From NCBI GenBank assembly GCA_016744135.1, contig JADGEX010000001.1, positions 817,029-881,028 of the forward strand: a stretch of 64,000 nucleotides of DNA, in the 5' to 3' direction. Below, piece by piece: positions 46,116 to 63,122 of the stretch. A program made the translations under genes and the position numbers. This stretch comes from Pseudodesulfovibrio sp. (GTDB lineage: Bacteria; Desulfobacterota; Desulfovibrionia; Desulfovibrionales; Desulfovibrionaceae). Under the pieces are notes generated by a model. It made no database searches. It was given only the letters and a program-made list of their open reading frames with translations, and was not told where the DNA came from. Position 1 is the stretch's first letter. Each line of letters opens with the position of its first letter.

Positions 46116-48023
46116 TCAAGAACGTTTGCGGAGATGACGTACGTCTCCAACGCGGACTGTCAATTTCTCTTTATCAAAATACTCCAATATCGGAATAAGA
46201 TACTTACGCGAGAGCCCTGTTATTTCCTTGCAGTCAGGGGCGGACATTTCTTGATTATCCGCAAAAAAAGCAACTATCCGGCCTTGAAGGTCATCCAAGG
46301 CCGTCTTATGATAATACATGTCACCTTTGATGCGTACCAACGCTCCTTGCTCCTGCAACAACTTCAAGACACCAGAAGCCTGCTTAAAGTCCATGCCAAG
46401 CGGTTCAAGTACATCCTTGAGATTGGGCGGGGTACCGCCTCCTTTAGTATAAGCATCAAGGATGGTTTCACGGACTTTTGCCTGATCTGAAGCCAACGAA
46501 ACTTTATGCCCTTTCAACTTGAGCAATTCCTGCTCGGCAACGATTTCACCAGTCTTAAGCATCCGTTCCACCACGAAATGAAATAGCTTGGGAGGCAAAT
46601 CCTTGCCCCATGAGGAAGCCAGTTCACCTCGTTGCACACCGGGTTTCATAGAATCCCTGGCATGAAAATCTTTCAAAAAGACAAGCAGACTCTCACCAAG
46701 AGACGCCGCCAGTTGCCCACCGGCATACCGACGCGTTTCCTTGTCAAACAACACAGACTTCTGCTGACCACCAAGTAGTCCCAAAGTCTTCTCCAACCCC
46801 TTTGTTTCAAGATTGGTCATGGTCAGCAATTGTGCGAAAGTCAATCCGACAGGACCTGCCAATTCCAATTGGGCTGCTGCCACCTCTTCGGGCGTCTCGG
46901 CAGCAAGCTGCTGCATAAGCTCCACCTTATCCGAGAATCGTTTTATAGTATGCCCGACTGGTCCTATAACCCGACCACCTGCAAAAGCGCGGAGCGGAGA
47001 AAATGCGCGCAACACGATACGATCACCATATACTGCGGCCAACGGTTCCGAAAATCGGACCTGACAGACGCAGGTTTCACCGGGTTTCAGATCTTCTCGA
47101 TCCAACAGATAAACACGAGCCAGCACTTCACGCGCACCGTGATGAAAATGTATTTCCCGCCGATGCTTGAGCGGCAGATGTGAAGATTCCAAAACGGTTA
47201 ATTCGATGTCCCACACCGTTGAAGGGAACAATGACCCCGGACGAGCCAACACATCTCCCCGCCTGATATCGTCCACTTCCAGGCCATGCAAATTGATGGC
47301 CGTCCGTCGTCCGGCCTGAGCTGTCTCCACAGCCTCGCCATGCGATTGCAAACTACGCACTTTGGTCTCTACCCCGGCTGGATAAAGAATAATATCGTCA
47401 CCAACAGAAATGGAACCGGAAACCATAGTCCCGGTGACCACGGTACCGTGTCCTTTCATGGTGAACACACGATCCACGGGCAGACGAAATAGATCGGAAC
47501 GACGACGGGGCTTGAATTCTGCCATCAAGGTCCGCAACTGATCCTTGAGCGCATCCAATCCGTCACCGGTATGCGCGGATACCGGTATAATCGGTGCGCC
47601 AGCAAGAAATGTTGGTTCAAGATAAGACGCAACTTCTTCTTCCACCATCTCCAACCATTCCGCATCCACCATGTCAGTCTTGGTCAAAGCAACAACGCCA
47701 GTTGTCACACCAAGCAATTGACAAATCTCCAAATGCTCACGGGTCTGGGGCATGATGCCTTCATCCGCTGCAATGGCCAAAACCACAAAATCAATACCTG
47801 CAGCACCGGCCACCATGTTCTTAACGAATTTTTCATGGCCAGGGACATCGACGATACCCAGTCTGTTCCCCTCTCCCAGATCAAGAAAGGCAAAACCGAG
47901 TTCTATGGTGATACCGCGTTTTTTCTCTTCGGATAATCGATCACAATCAATACCGGTAAGCGCTTTAATGAGTGTTGTCTTTCCATGGTCGATATGACCG
48001 GCTGTTCCCATGATAACGGGCAT
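46116..48023 (-). CDS. selB: Selenocysteine-specific elongation factor SelB
   Basis: A GTPase that delivers Sec-tRNA to UGA codons with a SECIS hairpin. The N-terminus starts [13 protein letters not shown] with the P-loop, then [20 protein letters not shown] and TKTD, the EF-Tu-like G motifs. Domains II and III follow, then winged-helix repeats in the C-terminal 260 residues that bind SECIS RNA. The length of 635 is normal. selA lies 3.4 kb away on the same strand, not adjacent. No tRNA-Sec is visible in the window. Confidence 0.95.
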
Positions 48024-50051: not shown

Positions 50052-51437
50052 CTACCGTTTCAGGAATTCCCTGAAAGCCAGTGTGCAGGCGTAAATATCA
50101 GCCTTGGAGGACAACTCGAAAGGTGAGTGCATGGACAATACAGGCACACCGACATCAATGACATCCATACCGTATACAGCCAAAAATTTAGCCACAGTTC
50201 CACCACCACCGACATCGACTTTGCCAAGCTCGGCCATATGCCACGGGATACCAGCGTCATCAAAGATACGCCTAAGCCAACCGATGTAATCAGGATGGGC
50301 GTCATTGGCTCCCACCTTGCCACGATGGCCAGTAAATTTATTGAAGCACGGCCCATATCCAATACGAGCAGCGTTCAGGGGCTCGTATACATCCTTATGA
50401 TCAGGGTCCATAGCGGCAGATACATCCGCAGACAGCACTGAGCCATTCATGAAAATTGAGGACAAGCGTGCGCCCGGTTCCCATGCCTCGGCCAATTCTT
50501 CCATACAATATTCAAAAAAGTACGACTTGGCACCAGTTGAACCTTCGGAACCAATCTCTTCCTTGTCCCAAAACAAAACAATCTGCGCATACTCAGGCTC
50601 TTCTTCAGCAAGCAATGCTTCCAGAGCACAAAACACACTGGACCGATCATCCTGACCATATCCGCCAATAGTGGCCTCATCCAAACCGACAAATCGAGCC
50701 GGACCAGCCGGAACAGCCTGCATCTCCGCACTGAAGAAATCGGACTCGTCAATGCCATACCGCTTATTCAACAGCTCAAGCACCATGCGCTTGACTGGTT
50801 CTTTGGGACCATCATCGTCCTTTTTGTCTTTGGATACCGGAGAATGTCCAAAAAACAGATTCAACTTTTCTGCCTCAAAGGCATCAGAAACCTTTTTACC
50901 CATTTCACTGGCTGCCAAATGTGGCAACAAATCGGTAATAGTAAAGACCGGATCCTTGGGGTCCTCACCGATGCACACGGTAACTTCCTCGCCGGACTTC
51001 TTGATCACGGTACCATGTAGAGCCAATGGGATGGTCAACCATTGATACTTGCGGATACCTCCATAATAATGGGTCTTGGCAAGACAAATATCCGTATCTT
51101 CATAAAGTGGACGCTGCTTCAAATCCAGACGCGGGCAATCTGCATGCGCACCAACCAACCGGAAGCCTTCGGATAACGGACGTTTGCCCTTCCGTGCCAG
51201 AAAACATGTCTTGTTCCGATTAAACCGATAAGCCAACGAAGCCTTAAGATCATCCTTGAACCCGGCCTTATCCACTCGTTTGCGCACATAGTCCATAACC
51301 AGGCGTTCGGTCTTGCATTCACTGAGAAATTTCACATAATCTTTTGCCATGGCATCCATGGCTTTGCGATCTTTCTTGGAAGAATACACTTCCCACGCAG
51401 TCTTTGGTTCATATTCAAGTACTTTTTTCTTGCTCAT
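50052..51437 (-). CDS. M18 family zinc aminopeptidase
   Basis: A 461-residue M18 metallopeptidase that trims N-terminal, often acidic, residues. Metal and catalytic residues are visible: H in GAHADCP, D in GQDDRSSVFC, E-E in WDKEEIGSEG, D in AAMDPDH, and H in SMHSPFEL near the C-terminus. It has the longer form used by many anaerobes. It starts 9 bases after selA, so it belongs to the folC-selA operon, with no obvious functional tie. Confidence 0.92.
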   Translation of the reverse strand: MSKKKVLEYEPKTAWEVYSSKKDRKAMDAMAKDYVKFLSECKTERLVMDYVRKRVDKAGFKDDLKASLAYRFNRNKTCFLARKGKRPLSEGFRLVGAHADCPRLDLKQRPLYEDTDICLAKTHYYGGIRKYQWLTIPLALHGTVIKKSGEEVTVCIGEDPKDPVFTITDLLPHLAASEMGKKVSDAFEAEKLNLFFGHSPVSKDKKDDDGPKEPVKRMVLELLNKRYGIDESDFFSAEMQAVPAGPARFVGLDEATIGGYGQDDRSSVFCALEALLAEEEPEYAQIVLFWDKEEIGSEGSTGAKSYFFEYCMEELAEAWEPGARLSSIFMNGSVLSADVSAAMDPDHKDVYEPLNAARIGYGPCFNKFTGHRGKVGANDAHPDYIGWLRRIFDDAGIPWHMAELGKVDVGGGGTVAKFLAVYGMDVIDVGVPVLSMHSPFELSSKADIYACTLAFREFLKR

Positions 51438-51446
51438 GACGAATCC

Positions 51447-52856
51447 TTATTTTTCGGTCAGGGAAACCATAGCCTGCTCCAACGCGGAGGCGGCCATTTT
51501 AAGTTCTGTCGAAGCCAATGTACGTGGATCAATAAGAAACTCATCATCCTCAATACGCGCCACCAACGGAGGGTCGGTCTGAAGAAGCGCGTCCTTCAAA
51601 TCTCCCACAGAAATATTCTTTACGGCAATAGAAACCATGGTACCGGGCAGATCATACTCGGGGAAGGCCCCGCCTCCCACTCTGGATACTCCCTTTTTCA
51701 TGGAAACCACAGCTCGCTCGCCGAGAGAATGACGAATGGCGTCAGCCAAACGACGCGCCTTGCTCTTGAGCGCTTCTTGTGATGCGGTAATCATTTTCAA
51801 CGTAGGAACCTTGCGTCGGGCTTCATCCATGTCGAGGTAAAGTCGCAAAGTCGCCTCAAGAGCAGCCAACGTCATTTTGTCGATGCGCATAGCCCGATTA
51901 ACCGGATTATTCTTGATGCGATCAATATATTCCTTACGTCCAACAATGATACCCGCCTGCGGACCACCGAGCACTTTATCACCGGAAAAAGACACTACAT
52001 CCGCACCTTGTGCAACGGTCTGTTGCACCGTGGGTTCACCGAGCAGACCGTCACCCTGCAGTGAATACAGAGAACCGCTCCCAAGATCTTCGATTACCGG
52101 CAGATTATACTTGTCACCCAGTTCTCGCATTTCCGGCAGCGTCACTTCCTTGGTGAATCCGACCACCCTAAAATTGGACGTATGAACCCGCATGAGTGCA
52201 CCGGTTTCATCATTGATAGCATTCTCGTAATCATGGACATGGCTTCGATTTGTAGCACCGACTTCATGCAAAATGGCCCCGGACTTGGTCATGACATCCG
52301 GGATGCGGAATGAACCGCCGATCTCAACGAGCTGCCCGCGAGACACGATAACCTCTCGTCCCTTGGCCAAGGTTTCCAACATGATAAAAACTGCGGCGGC
52401 GTTGTTGTTGACCACAAGTGCAGCCTCAGCTCCGGTAATATCGCACAGAATTTTCTCCACATGAGAATACCGGCTACCCCGATGTCCGGTGGACAAATCA
52501 AATTCACAATTGGAATAATGGCCGCACGCCTCCGCCACAGCCTTGATGGCGGACTTGGCAAGAAGTGACCGGCCCAAATTCGTATGAATGACAACGCCCG
52601 TACCATTAAGTACCCGCCTGAAATGTGGACGGGACTGCGCACGAACAAATGCGACCAGCCGAGGCAACAATGCCGTAAGGTCCAATTGCTCCGATGTCGT
52701 GATGGCGCCGGAACGAATCTCCTCTCGACAAACATTCAAAAAATCATTGACCAAATCCTTGATCAAAGCACGCGGCAGATCTCGAAAATCTTCAATGGCC
52801 TCAAGGGAAGAAAGGACCTGATCCACGGACGGAAGATATCTAAAAATTTGGCTCAT
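51447..52856 (-). CDS. selA: L-seryl-tRNA(Sec) selenium transferase
   Basis: A PLP enzyme converting Ser-tRNA(Sec) to Sec-tRNA(Sec) with selenophosphate. The N-terminal RNA-binding part (VDQVL onwards) and LNGTGVVIHTNLGRSLL are diagnostic. The PLP lysine is K294 in SFSGDKVLGGPQAG, at the same place as the E. coli enzyme. The length of 469 is normal. With selB at 46-48 kb it shows that this organism makes selenoproteins. It lies 12 bases after folC. Confidence 0.96.
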   Translation of the reverse strand: MSQIFRYLPSVDQVLSSLEAIEDFRDLPRALIKDLVNDFLNVCREEIRSGAITTSEQLDLTALLPRLVAFVRAQSRPHFRRVLNGTGVVIHTNLGRSLLAKSAIKAVAEACGHYSNCEFDLSTGHRGSRYSHVEKILCDITGAEAALVVNNNAAAVFIMLETLAKGREVIVSRGQLVEIGGSFRIPDVMTKSGAILHEVGATNRSHVHDYENAINDETGALMRVHTSNFRVVGFTKEVTLPEMRELGDKYNLPVIEDLGSGSLYSLQGDGLLGEPTVQQTVAQGADVVSFSGDKVLGGPQAGIIVGRKEYIDRIKNNPVNRAMRIDKMTLAALEATLRLYLDMDEARRKVPTLKMITASQEALKSKARRLADAIRHSLGERAVVSMKKGVSRVGGGAFPEYDLPGTMVSIAVKNISVGDLKDALLQTDPPLVARIEDDEFLIDPRTLASTELKMAASALEQAMVSLTEK

Positions 52857-52868
52857 ATATTTCTCAGG

Positions 52869-54125
52869 TTAGACTGTAAGACATTCGGGATACAATCTAT
52901 AGAACTCCGCCAACAAGTACAAGGACCCACAAACGAGTGTCGGACCGGGAACATTCGCCCCCATTTCAAGAGCCTCTCCCATAGACAGAGCAGGGCGCGC
53001 CCTACCTCCCAAGGCTTCGGCCAACACATCGGCACCCATCGCTCTTTCGTTTTCCATTGCAGGAACAAAGATCGGCCCATCGGTCAACGCCTGTACCAAC
53101 GGCACCATGGAGGCCAAATCCTTATCTTTCAAACAGGCAAAAACAACGCACTCCGGCCGGATATTTTGCGCATTCAATGCTGCGGAAAGCGCGGTCAAGG
53201 CATGGCTGTTATGCGCCCCGTCAAGCATGATACTCCGCCCGTCGATATCCACTGTCTGCAACCGGCCCGGCACAAAAACGGTCTCCATACCAAAATTTTC
53301 GAGACGAGGCTCACTCCGAATATCTCGACCAGCAGCGAACCATCGCCACCCGGCCAAAGCAAGCTGAGCATTCATGGTCTGATGAATACCATTGAGGCCC
53401 AACTTCACACCACGAACAGGTTCAGCCAAGTCCACGGAGTACATCAACCGTGCACCGACAGATTGAGCACGATCTTGCAACTGAATCATGGCATCGGCTT
53501 CCTGCGGACCTGTCAGGGCCACACTTTCATGATGCATGGCACCAGCCTTATCCTTGGCAATTTCTGCCAGCGTCGAACCAAGGAGCTTCTCATGATCCAT
53601 ACCGATAGGTGTGAACAACGTCAGCCCGGGAGCCAGAACATTGGTGGCATCGAATTTCCCACCCAATCCGGCTTCCATGACTGCCACGTCAACACCTTCA
53701 CATTCGAAAGCAAGCAGAGCCAGACAAGTCTGAAATTCAAAATAGGTCAGATCTTCACCGCCGGACGTGGACAAGACTGCGCTGGCAAGCTCAACCCATA
53801 CCTCACGAGAAAGCATGGCCCGATTCACCTGAATCCGTTCTCGTGGAGAAATAAAATGTGGTGAAGAGAAAAGCCCTACCTTGAGGCCATGAGCGCGGGC
53901 AATGGAACCAAAAAAGGCAGAAGTAGACCCTTTGCCGTTGGTTCCGACCACATGCACCACGGGTATATTCGGCATACCGTGTGCAGCCATAAACGTTTCC
54001 ATGCGGTCCAAACTCAAATCCATATGGAAAAGTCCGAGCCTGTCCATGTATTCAGCCAATTGAGAATAATCTTTTATATATGTCACGGAAGCTCTTTTAT
54101 CAGGATTTGGTCCGGCATGAAACAT
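52869..54125 (-). CDS. folC: Bifunctional folylpolyglutamate/dihydrofolate synthase
   Basis: Adds glutamate to folates, and in many bacteria to dihydropteroate. The P-loop is GTNGKGSTS (61-69), followed by [13 protein letters not shown] and the Mur-ligase-type second domain ([23 protein letters not shown]). The 418-residue start at ATG 54125 has little ribosome binding site. GTG at 54086 (VTYIKDYSQ) with AAGAG upstream gives the usual N-terminus and may be the true start. It is the first gene of the folC-selA-M18 operon. Confidence 0.93.
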
Positions 54126-55969: not shown

Positions 55970-56008
55970 AAGGCCGGGTACATTCAAACGAATGTGCCCG
56001 GCCTTTCT
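55970..56008. terminator. Bidirectional rho-independent terminator
   Basis: AAGGCCGGGTACATTC (55970-55985) and GAATGTGCCCGGCCTT (55990-56005) form a long stem around AAAC, with A- and T-rich flanks. Confidence 0.92.
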
Positions 56009-56013
56009 TATTT

Positions 56014-57168
56014 TCAGGAAAGAGAAATCAAAAGTTCGGCGAGCTTTGTCCCATCAATGTACGGAGCACTCATCTCGGTTACCAAGGGGTGATCAATGAC
56101 AACCAGTCCCATGTCCCGCACAGCTTGTTCGTCAATGCCATCGGGGTACTCGCCGTTTGCGACATCCACCACCACAGCCTCAACCGGTCGACACCCTTCA
56201 GGCGCCCCGCTCACAGCAAGATAATGCAATAACAATCGGACCTGATCAGCCACAGACAAGCCAACAGCTTCCGGGTCGTGCCCCATACTCGGGACAAATA
56301 CCTTGGGACATGGATTCTCGCATATTGCCGCTCCCACGCCCTGAGGCAACAGATTAGCTATCACGCTGGAATACAGACTGCCGGGCGGATAACAAATAAG
56401 ATCAGCATGACTGATACGCTTTTTGATGCCTTTGCCTAAAATAGGATAAACAGGAGATGTTCGCTCAAGAGAATCCGTCAACCACATGGACCGAATGGGG
56501 GCCTCAAGCGGCGAAACCTCCTTGCCGGTCATCAAATGCTGACCGATAACAACGGTATCATCCTCCAACTCTACGACCAGATGCAGATCCATATCCACTA
56601 CAGGCCGAACCTCTCCACGCACTGTCGCCAACTCGGAAAACATCTCAATAACCGGTCCCATTTTCCGATCTTTGGAGAGGTATCCGGCGGTCAGGATCAA
56701 ATTGCCAACACTCGCCCCGCACAAGTCGAAATCAGCTGGCATAATCGCCAAAAATCGTTGCAGGTAATCCATAATAATCACGCCCACAGGACCGGGGATG
56801 CAGTGCATCAAAAAATGTTCGCCCGATGCCAGTCTATCGAGGTCATTACGCAACTCGGCCTGATCCGCCTGCTGACTCAAACGGTGGGTAAACAGCGCGT
56901 ACACACCGTTATTTCCCTGCACGGACTGATCAGCCAATGCCATGAGTCGATTACGAATATCACCAACTGCTGGCATACCAAACGCATTGCGAAGCACGGC
57001 AGAACTACCGCCAGAATCAAAGGGAGTAATACAATGAATTGAATTATGCGTCAGTCCGACAAGCGCACGTGATGTATCACGCAACGCAGTGCCGCCACTG
57101 AAAAACAGGATGGATGGTCCCAATTCAGGGCTCTGTCTGTGCCGCTGCACCTTGATGGAATCAATCAT
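56014..57168 (-). CDS. CofD-like protein of the deltaproteobacterial GAK type
   Basis: A 384-residue protein with the CofD/YvcK fold. Near the N-terminus are FSGGTALR (23-30), DSGGSSAVLR (51-60) and GDIRNRL (69-75); later come LCGASVGNLILTAGYL, ADLICYPPGSLYSSVIANL and VFVPSMGHDPE. CofD transfers phospholactate in F420 synthesis, and YvcK is a regulator, but this branch is distinct. I recall it as a 'GAK system CofD-like protein' of unknown function. ATG 57168 has GGAGG upstream. It follows the XXXCH protein gene after 35 bases. No F420 synthesis genes are nearby. Confidence 0.75.
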   Translation of the reverse strand: MIDSIKVQRHRQSPELGPSILFFSGGTALRDTSRALVGLTHNSIHCITPFDSGGSSAVLRNAFGMPAVGDIRNRLMALADQSVQGNNGVYALFTHRLSQQADQAELRNDLDRLASGEHFLMHCIPGPVGVIIMDYLQRFLAIMPADFDLCGASVGNLILTAGYLSKDRKMGPVIEMFSELATVRGEVRPVVDMDLHLVVELEDDTVVIGQHLMTGKEVSPLEAPIRSMWLTDSLERTSPVYPILGKGIKKRISHADLICYPPGSLYSSVIANLLPQGVGAAICENPCPKVFVPSMGHDPEAVGLSVADQVRLLLHYLAVSGAPEGCRPVEAVVVDVANGEYPDGIDEQAVRDMGLVVIDHPLVTEMSAPYIDGTKLAELLISLS

Positions 57169-57203
57169 GTGCACCTCCTGCGCAGAATCCCCACTCTTTT
57201 ACA

Positions 57204-57734
57204 TTACGCATACTTTGCGTGACACCGTCCCTTTTCGTGAACGAGCGCATCAATAGCCGTATGCATCCGACTGATGTCGCCAGACTCATACGCATCTTTG
57301 AACGCCGCACACGCCTCGGTGTATATGTCATAATATTCATCACCGTAACCAGGATAACTGACCATGAGCGCAGAATCCGTCAAAAATGATTCCACTGCCT
57401 CACGCGGTGGCTCTTCGCCATCATGAATCATCTTGACCAGCATCCTGAAGCTGGGCTTCATACGTTTCTTGAGGTCCTTGTATTCCGGTTTGATTTCGCC
57501 ACAGGTCTCACATTCCACATCAAATGGCGCAGAGCATTCCTGCTCACTCTGAAATTTCATTTTAAGAACGACCTGACCAAAATCGGCCCGCCCTTTAATC
57601 TTGAACTTCTTGAAATCATCGACACAGGCAAATTCATCCGTTCCGCCATTCTCCAACGCGTCGGCCAATTCCCGAAAAAAAGTGGGAAGATCTTTTTGTT
57701 CCACTTGTCTGAATATCTTAGTTCCGCTGCTCAT
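57204..57734 (-). CDS. XXXCH-type protein, GAK-system partner
   Basis: A 176-residue acidic protein with no signal peptide. The first half (about 7-65) resembles an amphi-Trp-type beta/alpha module (LADALENGG, FKIKGRADFGQVVLKMKFQS). A CETC pair lies at 75-78. The C-terminal part is helical and ends KGRCHAKYA (C171-H172), like the heme site of cytochrome c' with the first Cys of CxxCH missing. I recall the family as 'GAK system XXXCH protein'. Together with the CofD-like gene downstream it forms an uncharacterised two-gene unit. Confidence 0.65.
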   Translation of the reverse strand: MSSGTKIFRQVEQKDLPTFFRELADALENGGTDEFACVDDFKKFKIKGRADFGQVVLKMKFQSEQECSAPFDVECETCGEIKPEYKDLKKRMKPSFRMLVKMIHDGEEPPREAVESFLTDSALMVSYPGYGDEYYDIYTEACAAFKDAYESGDISRMHTAIDALVHEKGRCHAKYA

Positions 57735-57807: not shown

Positions 57808-58713
57808 CTATACAGCCTGTATGACCGCATACCAAACAGGCAACGTAACGAAAGCCAACAGCGTCCCGACTCCGACCAAAGCCACGGCAAGCGATGGCCT
57901 CAACCCATGGCTCATACAGATGATTCCACCAGTGACCATTGGTCCCATGGCAGCTTCGAACACCGTGACTTGCGAGATCACATCAGTCTTACCCAAAATC
58001 ACCATATATAGAATAAGGATGATCAATGGAGCAAAAACAAGCTTATACCCTAATCCAATGAATAGCTCTCTGACATTGCCATGAATGGCACTGAAACACA
58101 GCGTCATCCCCACGGACAACAAAGCCAAGGGACTAAGCGTCGAACCAAGACGGGAAAGCACCCCTGTAAGCCACTCAGGATATGCAATCGGCTGAAGCGC
58201 GATGCCAAGCAAAATAGCAATAAATGGAGGAAACAGGAAAACTTTTTTCGCAACCATCAACCCACTGACTTTCTCACCAGAGACCTTGGCCGCAAGAATG
58301 ATTCCGGGAATAGCGAGAGCCAAAAAGGTACCGCCCGTGTCACAGAGCATGCCCACACCGATATACTCTGGCCCGAAAAAAGTCTCGATCATGGGCAGTC
58401 CCACAAACGAAGTATTACCAAGCCCGACGCACAGGGTCAGGCAGACCACAGTCTTTTCATCCCATCCGAATCGACGCCCCAAAAGAACAAAGAGCGCATA
58501 CCCGACACCAAAAACAATCCAAGCCATGGCAGCAGGCAACAAAAGATCCACCCCCAACGGCAGGGAGTGGGCATAAAGCAAAGCCAATGCGGGCATGGAC
58601 ATATAAATAATAACAGCATTCAGAGCCGCTGGCCCTTTGTCATCGATGACTCCGGCCACACGCATGACAAGGCCGAGCACAAAACATATGCCCAACAACA
58701 AAAAATTTTCCAT
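57808..58713 (-). CDS. AEC family auxin-efflux-type transporter
   Basis: A 301-residue protein with about ten helices and the AEC layout (AALNAVIIYMSMPALALLY, VGLGNTSFVGLPM, LSPLALLSVGMTL). Bacterial members carry malonate, malate or other organic acids; the substrate here is unknown. ATG 58713 has GGAGAG upstream; an in-frame TTG 12 bases earlier overlaps that site. It lies 73 bases upstream of the XXXCH gene on the same strand, so a shared transcript is possible. Confidence 0.87.
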   Translation of the reverse strand: MENFLLLGICFVLGLVMRVAGVIDDKGPAALNAVIIYMSMPALALLYAHSLPLGVDLLLPAAMAWIVFGVGYALFVLLGRRFGWDEKTVVCLTLCVGLGNTSFVGLPMIETFFGPEYIGVGMLCDTGGTFLALAIPGIILAAKVSGEKVSGLMVAKKVFLFPPFIAILLGIALQPIAYPEWLTGVLSRLGSTLSPLALLSVGMTLCFSAIHGNVRELFIGLGYKLVFAPLIILILYMVILGKTDVISQVTVFEAAMGPMVTGGIICMSHGLRPSLAVALVGVGTLLAFVTLPVWYAVIQAV

Positions 58714-58820
58714 CCGTCTCTCCAATTTCTGCGCGGACGGTAGGTGTTTTCCATACCGAATTCAAGCGATTATCTTTTGCAAACAGCACTCCCGACAGAA
58801 CAAAATACGAAAGAAAAGGC

Positions 58821-60965: not shown

Positions 60966-63122
60966 ATGAGAAAGCACATCCCTTTGCATGTCAACATCCT
61001 CACGATCTTTACGGTTCTAGTTACAACAATCGTTTTAATTGTGATTGGTTACGGGCACAAAAGCAATTCTGACTCTGCTGTTATTGCCGCACACCAGCTT
61101 TTGCGCCGAGTTGAGATGTCCATGGTTGAAAAAACACAGGCCCTTTTCGACACGGCATTCAGGACCGTGGACACTTTCATCAATTTTAAAGACATCGGAC
61201 AAAAAGCATCAATTCATTCTCACCCTTTGGAATCTGTTTTTTTTAAATTTCTCGAGCAGAACAAGGATTTTACTTCCATTTTTATTGGATTTGAAGATGG
61301 AGATTTCTTTCTCGTATCTTCACTGCACGGACGTAATGAATTAAAAAAGAGTCTGGGCATTCCAGAAAATGCAGTCTGGTATACACAAACAATTGCTCAT
61401 CAGGCCGACAAGCAACGGTACGAACTCAGAAAATATCTGGATACAGGTTTTGTTACAGTTGGTTCTTCCGCTGAATTACACGTACAATATGACCCCAGAC
61501 GTCGTCCCTGGTTCAGATCAGCCAGCGAAACAGATATTGCAACATTGAGTGATATTTATATTTTTTCTTTATCAGACGAACCGGGGATAACGGTTTCCCG
61601 TCGTTTTGACGCCACGGTTAAAGGCGTTGTCGGCGTGGACTTATCTCTCGCCAATGTGTCGCATTTTTTAAAATCACAGCTCATAGGCCCTGGCAATGAA
61701 ATCATGATTTTTGACACTATCGGGAATGTCTATGCCTACCCTGATTTAAACAAACTGATCACCAGCATAGGCATTACTGAAAGCGACTCGACAAAAAATG
61801 CAAAAATTGCTGCACTCGGCTCTCCGGCTCTGACAGCTCTTGTACAATTACTTCAAACCAAAGACACAGACGTCATTCACGATCAATCACTTCTTGTGGA
61901 TGGCACCACTCATCTCGTTGGCATTGAACCACTTCCCAAAGAATATGGAAAAGAATTATTCATAGCTCTCACAGTCCCGGAGTCAACTTTTACCGGCCCG
62001 ATAGCTGAAGTTGGCAAACGAACATTCTTTGTCTCATTAGGGATGCTTTTCCTGTTTTTGCCAATACTATATTTCGTTTCCAAACGTATCAGTCGCCCAC
62101 TCAAAATTCTCACTCAAAAAGTAGAAAATATTAAAGCTTTCAAACTGGATTCACCAATAAATGTTCAATCGAATATTCTTGAAATCCGAGAATTGAGCAA
62201 GGCGACTGAAACCATGCGTGAAGCCCTCAACGCTTTTGGGAGTTATATTCCCAAACCTCTCGTTAAAGCGATGATCGTCAACGACATTGTTCCAACGCTG
62301 GGCGGCGATCGCAGGGAAATGACCTTTCTATTCAGCGATATAAAAGATTTCACCACTATTTCAGAGACCCTCACTCCTGAGCAGGTGACAAGCAGTATTA
62401 CAAGCTACTTAGAAAAAATGAGTTGGACCATCCTCCAGAACAAAGGGACCATAGATAAATATATCGGCGACTCAATCATGGCTTTCTGGAATGCTCCAGT
62501 AATCAACACCGAACATGCATTTCACGCATGCCTCACAGCCTTGCAATGCAGAAATGTACTTTCGGTATTTAATCAACATCGTCGAGACAATAATGAACCG
62601 GAATTCCTGACCAGAATGGGGGTGCACACAGGAGAAGCCGTTGTTGGAAACATAGGCTCTTCGGACCGCATGGACTATACGGCCATGGGAGCATCTGTAA
62701 ATCTCGCTTCACGCCTTGAAGGGCTCAATAAGTACATGGGAACTGATATCCTTATCAGTCGACCGACAATGCTCGCAGCCGGAGATGAATTCCTCTTCCG
62801 CTTTGCAGGCAAAGTTGTCCCCAAAGGAACGACTGACGGGCTGTGCGTTTATGAACTGCTTGGGACAAAAATCAATGCAACAGGTATGTATGCCCCATTC
62901 TCTGTATCTGAAGAAATCATGCAAAAAACAGAAAAATGGGAAGCTGCTATCCGTCTTTTCCTTTCACGGGATTTTGCGGGAGCAAAAGCCGCTTTCACTC
63001 CCCTTCTTGAAGAATATGGAGCTGATCCTCTCATTGAAAAATATCTGAAACTCACTCAGGAATTTTCAATACAATCACCGGATGATTCCTGGAACGGTGA
63101 ACAAAGTTTCGACGTGAAATAA
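60966..63122 (+). CDS. Membrane class III adenylate cyclase with Cache sensor and HAMP
   Basis: 718 residues: TM1 (9-29), a large periplasmic Cache-type sensor (about 40-345), TM2 (353-372), HAMP (372-425) and a class III cyclase domain (about 445-640). Metal aspartates D458 (FSDIKDF) and D502 (YIGDSIMAFW), purine-site K498 and T572 (DYTAMGASVN), and the transition-state pattern NLASR (R583) fit an adenylate-specific class IIIb catalytic centre. It would make cAMP in response to an external ligand. A solute-binding protein gene follows after 9 bases. Confidence 0.92.
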   Translation: MRKHIPLHVNILTIFTVLVTTIVLIVIGYGHKSNSDSAVIAAHQLLRRVEMSMVEKTQALFDTAFRTVDTFINFKDIGQKASIHSHPLESVFFKFLEQNKDFTSIFIGFEDGDFFLVSSLHGRNELKKSLGIPENAVWYTQTIAHQADKQRYELRKYLDTGFVTVGSSAELHVQYDPRRRPWFRSASETDIATLSDIYIFSLSDEPGITVSRRFDATVKGVVGVDLSLANVSHFLKSQLIGPGNEIMIFDTIGNVYAYPDLNKLITSIGITESDSTKNAKIAALGSPALTALVQLLQTKDTDVIHDQSLLVDGTTHLVGIEPLPKEYGKELFIALTVPESTFTGPIAEVGKRTFFVSLGMLFLFLPILYFVSKRISRPLKILTQKVENIKAFKLDSPINVQSNILEIRELSKATETMREALNAFGSYIPKPLVKAMIVNDIVPTLGGDRREMTFLFSDIKDFTTISETLTPEQVTSSITSYLEKMSWTILQNKGTIDKYIGDSIMAFWNAPVINTEHAFHACLTALQCRNVLSVFNQHRRDNNEPEFLTRMGVHTGEAVVGNIGSSDRMDYTAMGASVNLASRLEGLNKYMGTDILISRPTMLAAGDEFLFRFAGKVVPKGTTDGLCVYELLGTKINATGMYAPFSVSEEIMQKTEKWEAAIRLFLSRDFAGAKAAFTPLLEEYGADPLIEKYLKLTQEFSIQSPDDSWNGEQSFDVK

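Follow-up and report, generated by a model that had tools for sequence, protein, structure and literature searches.

A CofD-like/XXXCH gene pair in Pseudodesulfovibrio as a possible minimal core of the GAK cluster

The described proteins nearest to the enzyme considered here are those of the GlmR/YvcK type and, at a greater distance, the F420 proteins CofD and FbiA. In the available text of PMC10128056, joint mutation of GlmR D40, D41 and N198 lowers uridyltransferase activity about 100-fold; the accessible part of PMC5482804 gives Y265 and R301 as the residues of Bacillus subtilis YvcK most important for binding UDP-N-acetylglucosamine (UDP-GlcNAc), and that of PMC7253369 places the metal of FbiA on D45 and D57. 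Against this background, we analyzed two adjacent genes, encoding a CofD-like protein and a small XXXCH-domain protein, in a 64,000-nucleotide (nt) stretch of DNA from Pseudodesulfovibrio sp. (contig JADGEX010000001.1, positions 817,029 to 881,028; hereafter the window). An earlier note on this DNA had named both as members of the 'GAK system', which also includes an ATP-grasp enzyme and was said to have no known function; in agreement, our literature searches, which left most subscription papers uncovered, found no paper on the system or its families, although an Enterococcus paper mentioning a CofD-like protein was among the results. With a probability of roughly 0.43, we propose that these two genes form the minimal core of the GAK cluster, retained or put together as a self-standing two-gene unit in which the XXXCH protein would be the cytosolic adaptor or sensor of a GlmR-like transferase. 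The pair comprises the following features, with protein lengths in amino acids (aa):

56014..57168, minus strand: GAK-type CofD-like gene, 384 aa from ATG 57168 (TIGR04357, PF01933)
Start GTG 57174, minus strand: CofD-like open reading frame as mechanically listed, 386 aa
57204..57734, minus strand: XXXCH-domain gene, 176 aa (TIGR04358), upstream of the CofD-like gene
57507..57734, minus strand: XXXCH N-terminal domain, residues about 1-76, amphi-Trp-like by remote similarity
57207..57482, minus strand: predicted four-helix C-terminal domain of XXXCH, residues 85-176, ending in ...RCHAKYA

Both open reading frames lie on the minus strand and carry all the motifs attributed to them (SGGTALR, GDIRNRL, ASVGN and KGRCHAKYA). 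The listed GTG 57174 overlaps the Shine-Dalgarno sequence of the CofD-like gene, and a perfect AGGAGG (6/6) precedes ATG 57168; placing the start at this ATG leaves a gap of 35 nt after the XXXCH stop, which is exactly the spacing reported before. The small protein had also been called acidic, and it is so only mildly, with 33 D/E against 25 K/R. In the NCBIfam scan, the CofD-like protein scored 500.6 bits with TIGR04357 (cut-off 340; model positions 1-368 of 368) and the XXXCH protein 103.4 bits with TIGR04358 (cut-off 40), so that both family memberships hold far above the curated cut-offs. The CofD-like protein also matched the broad CofD family of Pfam (PF01933, 133 bits), fell below the cut-off of the YvcK model TIGR01826 (110 vs 196 bits) and matched no curated F420 CofD model, as the NCBIfam scan at E 1 returned TIGR04357 and TIGR01826 only. 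The profile search that the note had called for thus places the protein in neither ordinary F420 CofD nor YvcK, and these curated models rule out both identities. Separately, we considered a defense role and a phage origin and set both aside: PADLOC was empty for six of seven proteins and gave XXXCH one weak match (E 0.0072), and PHROGs was empty for CofD and gave XXXCH two weak matches (E 0.052 and 0.056).

The remaining members of the GAK cluster are missing from the pair's own genome (3.97 Mb, 99.94% complete). Genome-wide searches recovered no ATP-grasp (TIGR04356) above cut-off, the best match reaching 88.3 of 300 bits and none passing E 1e-50; no HprK-related kinase B (HprK_B; TIGR04355) at E 1e-30; no amphi-Trp (TIGR04354) at E 0.001; and nothing homologous to the 390-aa cluster gene described below. 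The PhoU-kinase protein of the cluster was matched only in its PhoU region, at 22% identity. An incomplete assembly is an unlikely cause, given the completeness of the genome and the absence of the same partners from the one-contig genome of the same species (G129). The ATP-grasp gene had correctly been placed outside the window, and the rest of the genome holds no match at cut-off either, which corrects the earlier reading. Since these searches were genome-wide, the expected partners are absent rather than merely beyond the window, and the locus is a two-gene unit and not a complete GAK system.

To place this in a phyletic context, we surveyed a class sample of 247 genomes. CofD was detected in 207 of them at E 0.001 (204 over cut-off), XXXCH in 137 at E 0.001 (136 over cut-off), ATP-grasp in 118 at E 1e-50 and HprK_B in 110 at E 1e-30. 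The gene content is nearly nested: every genome with HprK_B also has ATP-grasp, 115 of the 118 with ATP-grasp have XXXCH, and 133 of the 137 with XXXCH have CofD. Among the 129 genomes lacking ATP-grasp, CofD occurs in 22/22 with XXXCH vs 71/107 without it (Fisher p 4.6e-4, without correction for relatedness). The window's genus, represented by 31 genomes, has CofD in 31, XXXCH in 28 and ATP-grasp in 14; a named Pseudodesulfovibrio metagenome-assembled genome carries a CofD that is 57% identical and groups with this genus on the CofD tree. As a separate observation, two Marinomonas genomes (G254 and G256; loci L073 and L075) lack XXXCH and carry a CofD-like gene along with an ATP-grasp that passes the cut-off, the two genes apparently lying on separate contigs, judging by contig numbering.

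The two-gene arrangement recurs. We found 15 loci with adjacent XXXCH and CofD genes on the same strand and the middle genes of the cluster absent, at gaps of -8 to 266 nt; 11 of these are in the window's genus (candidate gaps -8 to 66 nt) and four elsewhere (136-266 nt). Adjacent pairs are thus present in several lineages, and the pair recurs in related genomes, contrary to the lack of any conserved neighborhood that the note had named as refuting its reading. The two genes often, though not always, lie side by side: 12 of the 22 genomes that have XXXCH and lack ATP-grasp carry them adjacent to each other, seven have them apart and three have no listed place (G139, G177 and G182). The CofD tree was built from 68 proteins after the exclusion of L076, whose frame is broken, and of partial genes and repeated copies; L097 and L113, which the gene caller did not parse, were read by six-frame search. 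On this tree, the pair label requires nine changes, at least six of them forced by starred branches. The XXXCH tree is weaker, with eight changes, three of them forced. Three genomes (G036, G053 and G214) carry both the pair and the full cluster, and together with the changes on the trees, this indicates that the two-gene arrangement originated, or was retained, on more than one occasion and that decay alone does not explain it. Both genes are under purifying selection: the ratio of non-synonymous to synonymous substitution rates (dN/dS) is 0.08-0.14 for CofD in the four computable of five comparisons (one with saturated dS) and 0.04-0.12 for XXXCH in three comparisons.

For the full cluster, we parsed 48 loci, comprising the window, eight named loci and 39 of 40 further fetched stretches, and named the gene families from locus L096. 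The order is XXXCH, the 390-aa protein, amphi-Trp, PhoU-kinase, ATP-grasp, HprK_B, CofD-like and a second amphi-Trp; it is complete in four parsed loci (L096, L103, L105 and L110) and is seen with genes missing or unparsed in five (L070, L095, L104, L106 and L109). An amphi-Trp-family gene lies immediately 3' of CofD in 11 of 41 parsed CofD-bearing loci. The 390-aa protein (L096:12472-13641, minus strand; eight relatives) conserves HWH, PHPEQ and GDDCH motifs, which, judged by eye, look like those of a PHP-type metallo-phosphoesterase; Pfam, NCBIfam and PDB profile searches with it gave no match. The 550-aa cluster protein at L096:10529-12178 (minus strand) joins a PhoU domain to an EcKL/APH-like kinase region. 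In three loci of the genus labeled g3 (L111, L112 and L114), CofD stands alone, with an RluA-like gene and a gene for a Pit phosphate transporter after it, and L111 and L112 have a DUF47/PhoU gene there as well; the Pit and DUF47 neighbors add a second link to phosphate to the one given by the PhoU fusion.

Structure prediction and comparative sequence analysis place the CofD-like protein nearer to GlmR/YvcK than to F420 CofD. The AlphaFold2 (AF2) model, made with eight sequences, has a predicted local distance difference test (pLDDT) score of 89.1, and its nearest PDB entry is the GlmR/YvcK-type structure 2o2z (E 3.7e-20; template modeling (TM) score by target 0.84). F420 CofD and FbiA share the fold and the PF01933 family but are farther away (3c3d, E 1e-7; 6uvx, E 2.4e-8), with just 12-13% identity in the structural alignments. 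By this model, the nearest solved relatives are GlmR/YvcK and not F420 CofD. A profile of 34 relatives matched five PDB sequences at E 0.01, all of which we take to be of the UPF0052/YvcK type.

The following putative active-site residues are invariant in all 68 CofD-like proteins of the conservation set, which includes the 30 loci that scored best in the class-wide CofD search: D53, S54, G71-D72, R74, R76, N158, N274, K291, D300, E302 and D337. The D-x-GGSS and GDxR motifs are shared with GlmR/YvcK at the same 19-residue spacing, and D53, S54 and N274 align with GlmR D40, D41 and N198 (positions hand-counted). By analogy with D45 and D57 of FbiA, D53 and D72 may be metal ligands. Other features set the GAK proteins apart: the invariant GQH and P-x4-D-x-E motifs are peculiar to them, unlike GlmR/YvcK, and the positions of YvcK Y265 and R301 are not conserved in an alignment that is weak there. 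With these UDP-GlcNAc residues not kept, the ligand of the CofD-like protein is probably a different one.

The XXXCH protein appears to be a two-domain protein. Its AF2 model (two sequences, pLDDT 71.8) shows a strand-helix-strand-strand N-terminal part followed by four helices at residues 85-175. Comparison of 35 XXXCH N-terminal parts with 19 amphi-Trp proteins by hhalign gave E 3.2e-5 and 8e-6 (probability 73 and 84%), against nine control pairs that all came out at 0.073 or weaker, and the Pfam amphi-Trp profile PF20068 was hit below threshold in eight of 31 members (best E 0.0079). In the C-terminal domain, K89, M92, P109, F117, G131, Y135, C171 and H172 are invariant in 31/31 sequences, and exactly four residues follow the Cys-His in 37/37 rows (34 distinct XXXCH genes). 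This invariant Cys-His four residues from the C-terminus is a newly reported feature of the family.

Several searches give the C-terminal bundle a faint, sub-threshold resemblance to cytochrome c' and cytochrome b562. The top Foldseek match of the model is the cytochrome c' 1cgn (E 0.014; TM by target 0.59), and the best 50 of 813 matches include 31 cytochromes c', two engineered cb562 proteins and two entries of a Kuenenia complex, with none of the 813 reaching E 0.001. In a PDB sequence search with the XXXCH profile, 24 of 34 weak matches were cytochrome c' (E 0.12-0.62), mostly versions of one protein, and these align with the XXXCH Cys-His in register. The best match in that search, above any cytochrome, was the histidine phosphotransfer protein 4pac (E 0.0072), which we set aside as chance because it aligns with the N-terminal half, a part modeled with strands. 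Across the 31 members, the Pfam families matched most often were amphi-Trp (eight members), cytochrome c' (six) and b562 (five), the next family being matched by three; the best E values were 0.0059 for cytochrome c' (PF01322) and 0.0035 for b562 (PF07361), and in the ten members scanned singly, the best scores were below the gathering cut-offs (17 and 18.4 vs 26.5 and 30 bits). Where the matched stretch is given, the cytochrome matches fall at the XXXCH C-terminus and end at or near the end of the profile. A profile-profile comparison with cytochromes, made with six sequences, reached E 6.3e-5 (reverse 2.8e-4), above all 300 column shuffles.

The terminal helix of XXXCH thus shares its Cys-His in register with cytochrome c'/b562, from which the protein differs by the extra N-terminal domain and by having no evident signal peptide; the CXXCH of cytochrome c' is missing, and only the second Cys is kept (x-x-x-C-H). 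As no signal sequence is evident by eye, covalent heme attachment through the periplasmic route is unlikely. The euglenozoan cytochromes c also named 'XXXCH' share the motif name and the Cys-His without the first Cys, and presumably differ from the GAK protein in fold and compartment. These mitochondrial proteins have a single cysteine and hold heme by one thioether bond, according to the accessible part of PMC8262978. In the predicted bundle of XXXCH, the invariant M92 falls in the first helix and the invariant H172 in the last. In cytochrome b562, Met7 lies in the first helix and His102 in the last. Both are heme ligands of that protein in the available text of PMC8082397. We newly propose that XXXCH proteins look like an amphi-Trp-like domain joined to a four-helix bundle faintly resembling cytochrome c'/b562, and we offer heme binding by this bundle as a hypothesis.

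Under the minimal-core proposal, the CofD-like protein would be an enzyme of the GlmR/YvcK/CofD fold with its putative metal- and nucleotide-binding core intact, probably transferring a nucleotidyl or phosphoryl-linked group. XXXCH would be its cytosolic partner and would contact it physically, the amphi-Trp-like domain docking on the CofD-like protein, a role that we propose because an amphi-Trp gene follows CofD in the 11 loci noted above. The cytochrome c'/b562-like bundle with its C-terminal Cys-His would act as a ligand- or redox-responsive regulator, and the ATP-grasp ligase and kinases of full clusters would form further, dispensable outer layers. The earlier interpretation, in which the CofD-like enzyme uses a phosphorylated metabolite with XXXCH as its partner, is on the whole partly supported.

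A number of observations weigh against our proposal. XXXCH and CofD lie apart in seven of the 22 genomes with XXXCH and without ATP-grasp (G060, G066, G083, G109, G122, G193 and G221), XXXCH occurs without CofD in four of 137 genomes (G001, G054, G185 and G227, which share the genus label g2), and between the two closest genomes, which show almost no changes (dS 0.010), XXXCH dN/dS is 0.49. In 71 of the 247 genomes, CofD stands without the other three families, and XXXCH was not found in six searched gammaproteobacterial CofD genomes, whose completeness is not given and two of which have an ATP-grasp over cut-off; XXXCH is therefore not required for every function of CofD. The equivalent of GlmR D41 is an invariant Ser (S54) in GAK proteins, so that GlmR-like uridyltransfer may not carry over. 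On the side of XXXCH, the window's protein matches no Pfam amphi-Trp or cytochrome family at E 10; of the ten members scanned singly, four have a cytochrome or amphi-Trp match and six have none, and single members match other Pfam families similarly well (DUF7020, E 0.004; WapI, 0.0047). Other proteins, such as insulin-degrading enzyme, make up 15 of the 50 best Foldseek matches; the profile match to cytochromes is lost (E 0.14) without the last eight columns, and a control comparison of amphi-Trp with cytochromes itself reaches E 0.0058.

The genomes with CofD alone also bear on a reading in which the CofD-like protein acts by itself, as a GlmR-like metabolic regulator or a uridyltransferase for envelope precursors, with XXXCH a loosely linked neighbor. 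Such a role would fit its nearest solved relatives, GlmR/YvcK, but we consider it unlikely, as XXXCH is almost always accompanied by CofD, adjacent pairs recur and the UDP-GlcNAc residues of YvcK are not conserved. XXXCH might instead be the substrate, its invariant C-terminal tail being modified in a RimK-like manner by the CofD-like enzyme and, in full clusters, by the ligase and kinases as well. RimK acts on the C-terminus of a protein; the tail of XXXCH has the fixed register described above, and the full cluster encodes, besides an HprK-related kinase, an ATP-grasp enzyme that MptN and RimK models match below their cut-offs. In the cytochrome c'/b562 profiles, however, the end likewise comes just past the His and at the same register, so that the fixed end of XXXCH is explained as a feature of the fold. 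Furthermore, pair-only genomes retain no ligase of the GAK ATP-grasp family, and CofD-fold enzymes of known activity work on small molecules in the accessible parts of PMC10128056 and PMC7253369; we therefore regard the substrate role as unlikely.

A further reading is that a GAK cluster was lost and that the two genes are its decaying remains, without a function of their own. This would account for the absence of the other cluster genes and for pairs sitting in clades that also have full clusters. We judge this highly improbable, because the putative active-site residues are invariant, CofD dN/dS is low, both frames are open in all 15 pair loci (XXXCH being short in L023, a 133-aa frame), the arrangement is found in several lineages and three genomes hold the pair alongside the full cluster. 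A bolder form of the minimal-core proposal, which we regard as doubtful, makes XXXCH a cytosolic sensor of heme (or of a related porphyrin or metal) built on a degenerate cytochrome c'/b562 bundle, with M92 and H172 as the axial pair and C171 as a single-thioether attachment or redox-active thiol; amphi-Trp docking would then switch CofD according to the state of heme, redox or nitric oxide/carbon monoxide (NO/CO).

The pair is flanked by two further features:

55970..56005, plus strand: 16-pair terminator-like hairpin, between the CofD-like gene and a convergent chemoreceptor gene
57808..58725, minus strand: AEC-type transporter gene, 73 nt upstream of XXXCH (TIGR00946, 83.4 bits, under the cut-off of 246)

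The terminator scan called the hairpin on the plus strand only, that is, on the chemoreceptor side; from an A-run on its other flank, our guess is that it terminates the CofD-like gene too. The AEC-type transporter gene is the upstream neighbor of XXXCH in 6/6 loci of the window's pair clade, where it is possibly the first gene of the pair's transcription unit. Elsewhere in the window, inspection of the sequence identified SelB-like (46116-48023) and SelA-like (51447-52856) genes, both on the minus strand, and near them a FolC-like (52869-54125) and an aminopeptidase-like gene (50052-51437). The SelA-like, FolC-like and aminopeptidase-like genes are syntenic with the pair in six loci; a tRNA scan of the window returned Ser, His and Leu only, with no tRNA-Sec found within it. 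By the same kind of inspection, the plus-strand gene at 60966-63122 encodes a protein of 718 aa, part of which looks like a sensor and whose end resembles a class III cyclase.

The co-occurrence of CofD and XXXCH without the rest of the cluster cuts an eight-gene puzzle down to two tractable genes, and the faint resemblance of the XXXCH family to amphi-Trp and cytochrome c'/b562 is a starting point for understanding its structure. Should the heme-sensing proposal prove true, the GAK system would parallel the HprK and GlmR control of carbon flux in Firmicutes, gated in this case by heme or a gas, with the pair as its minimal form.

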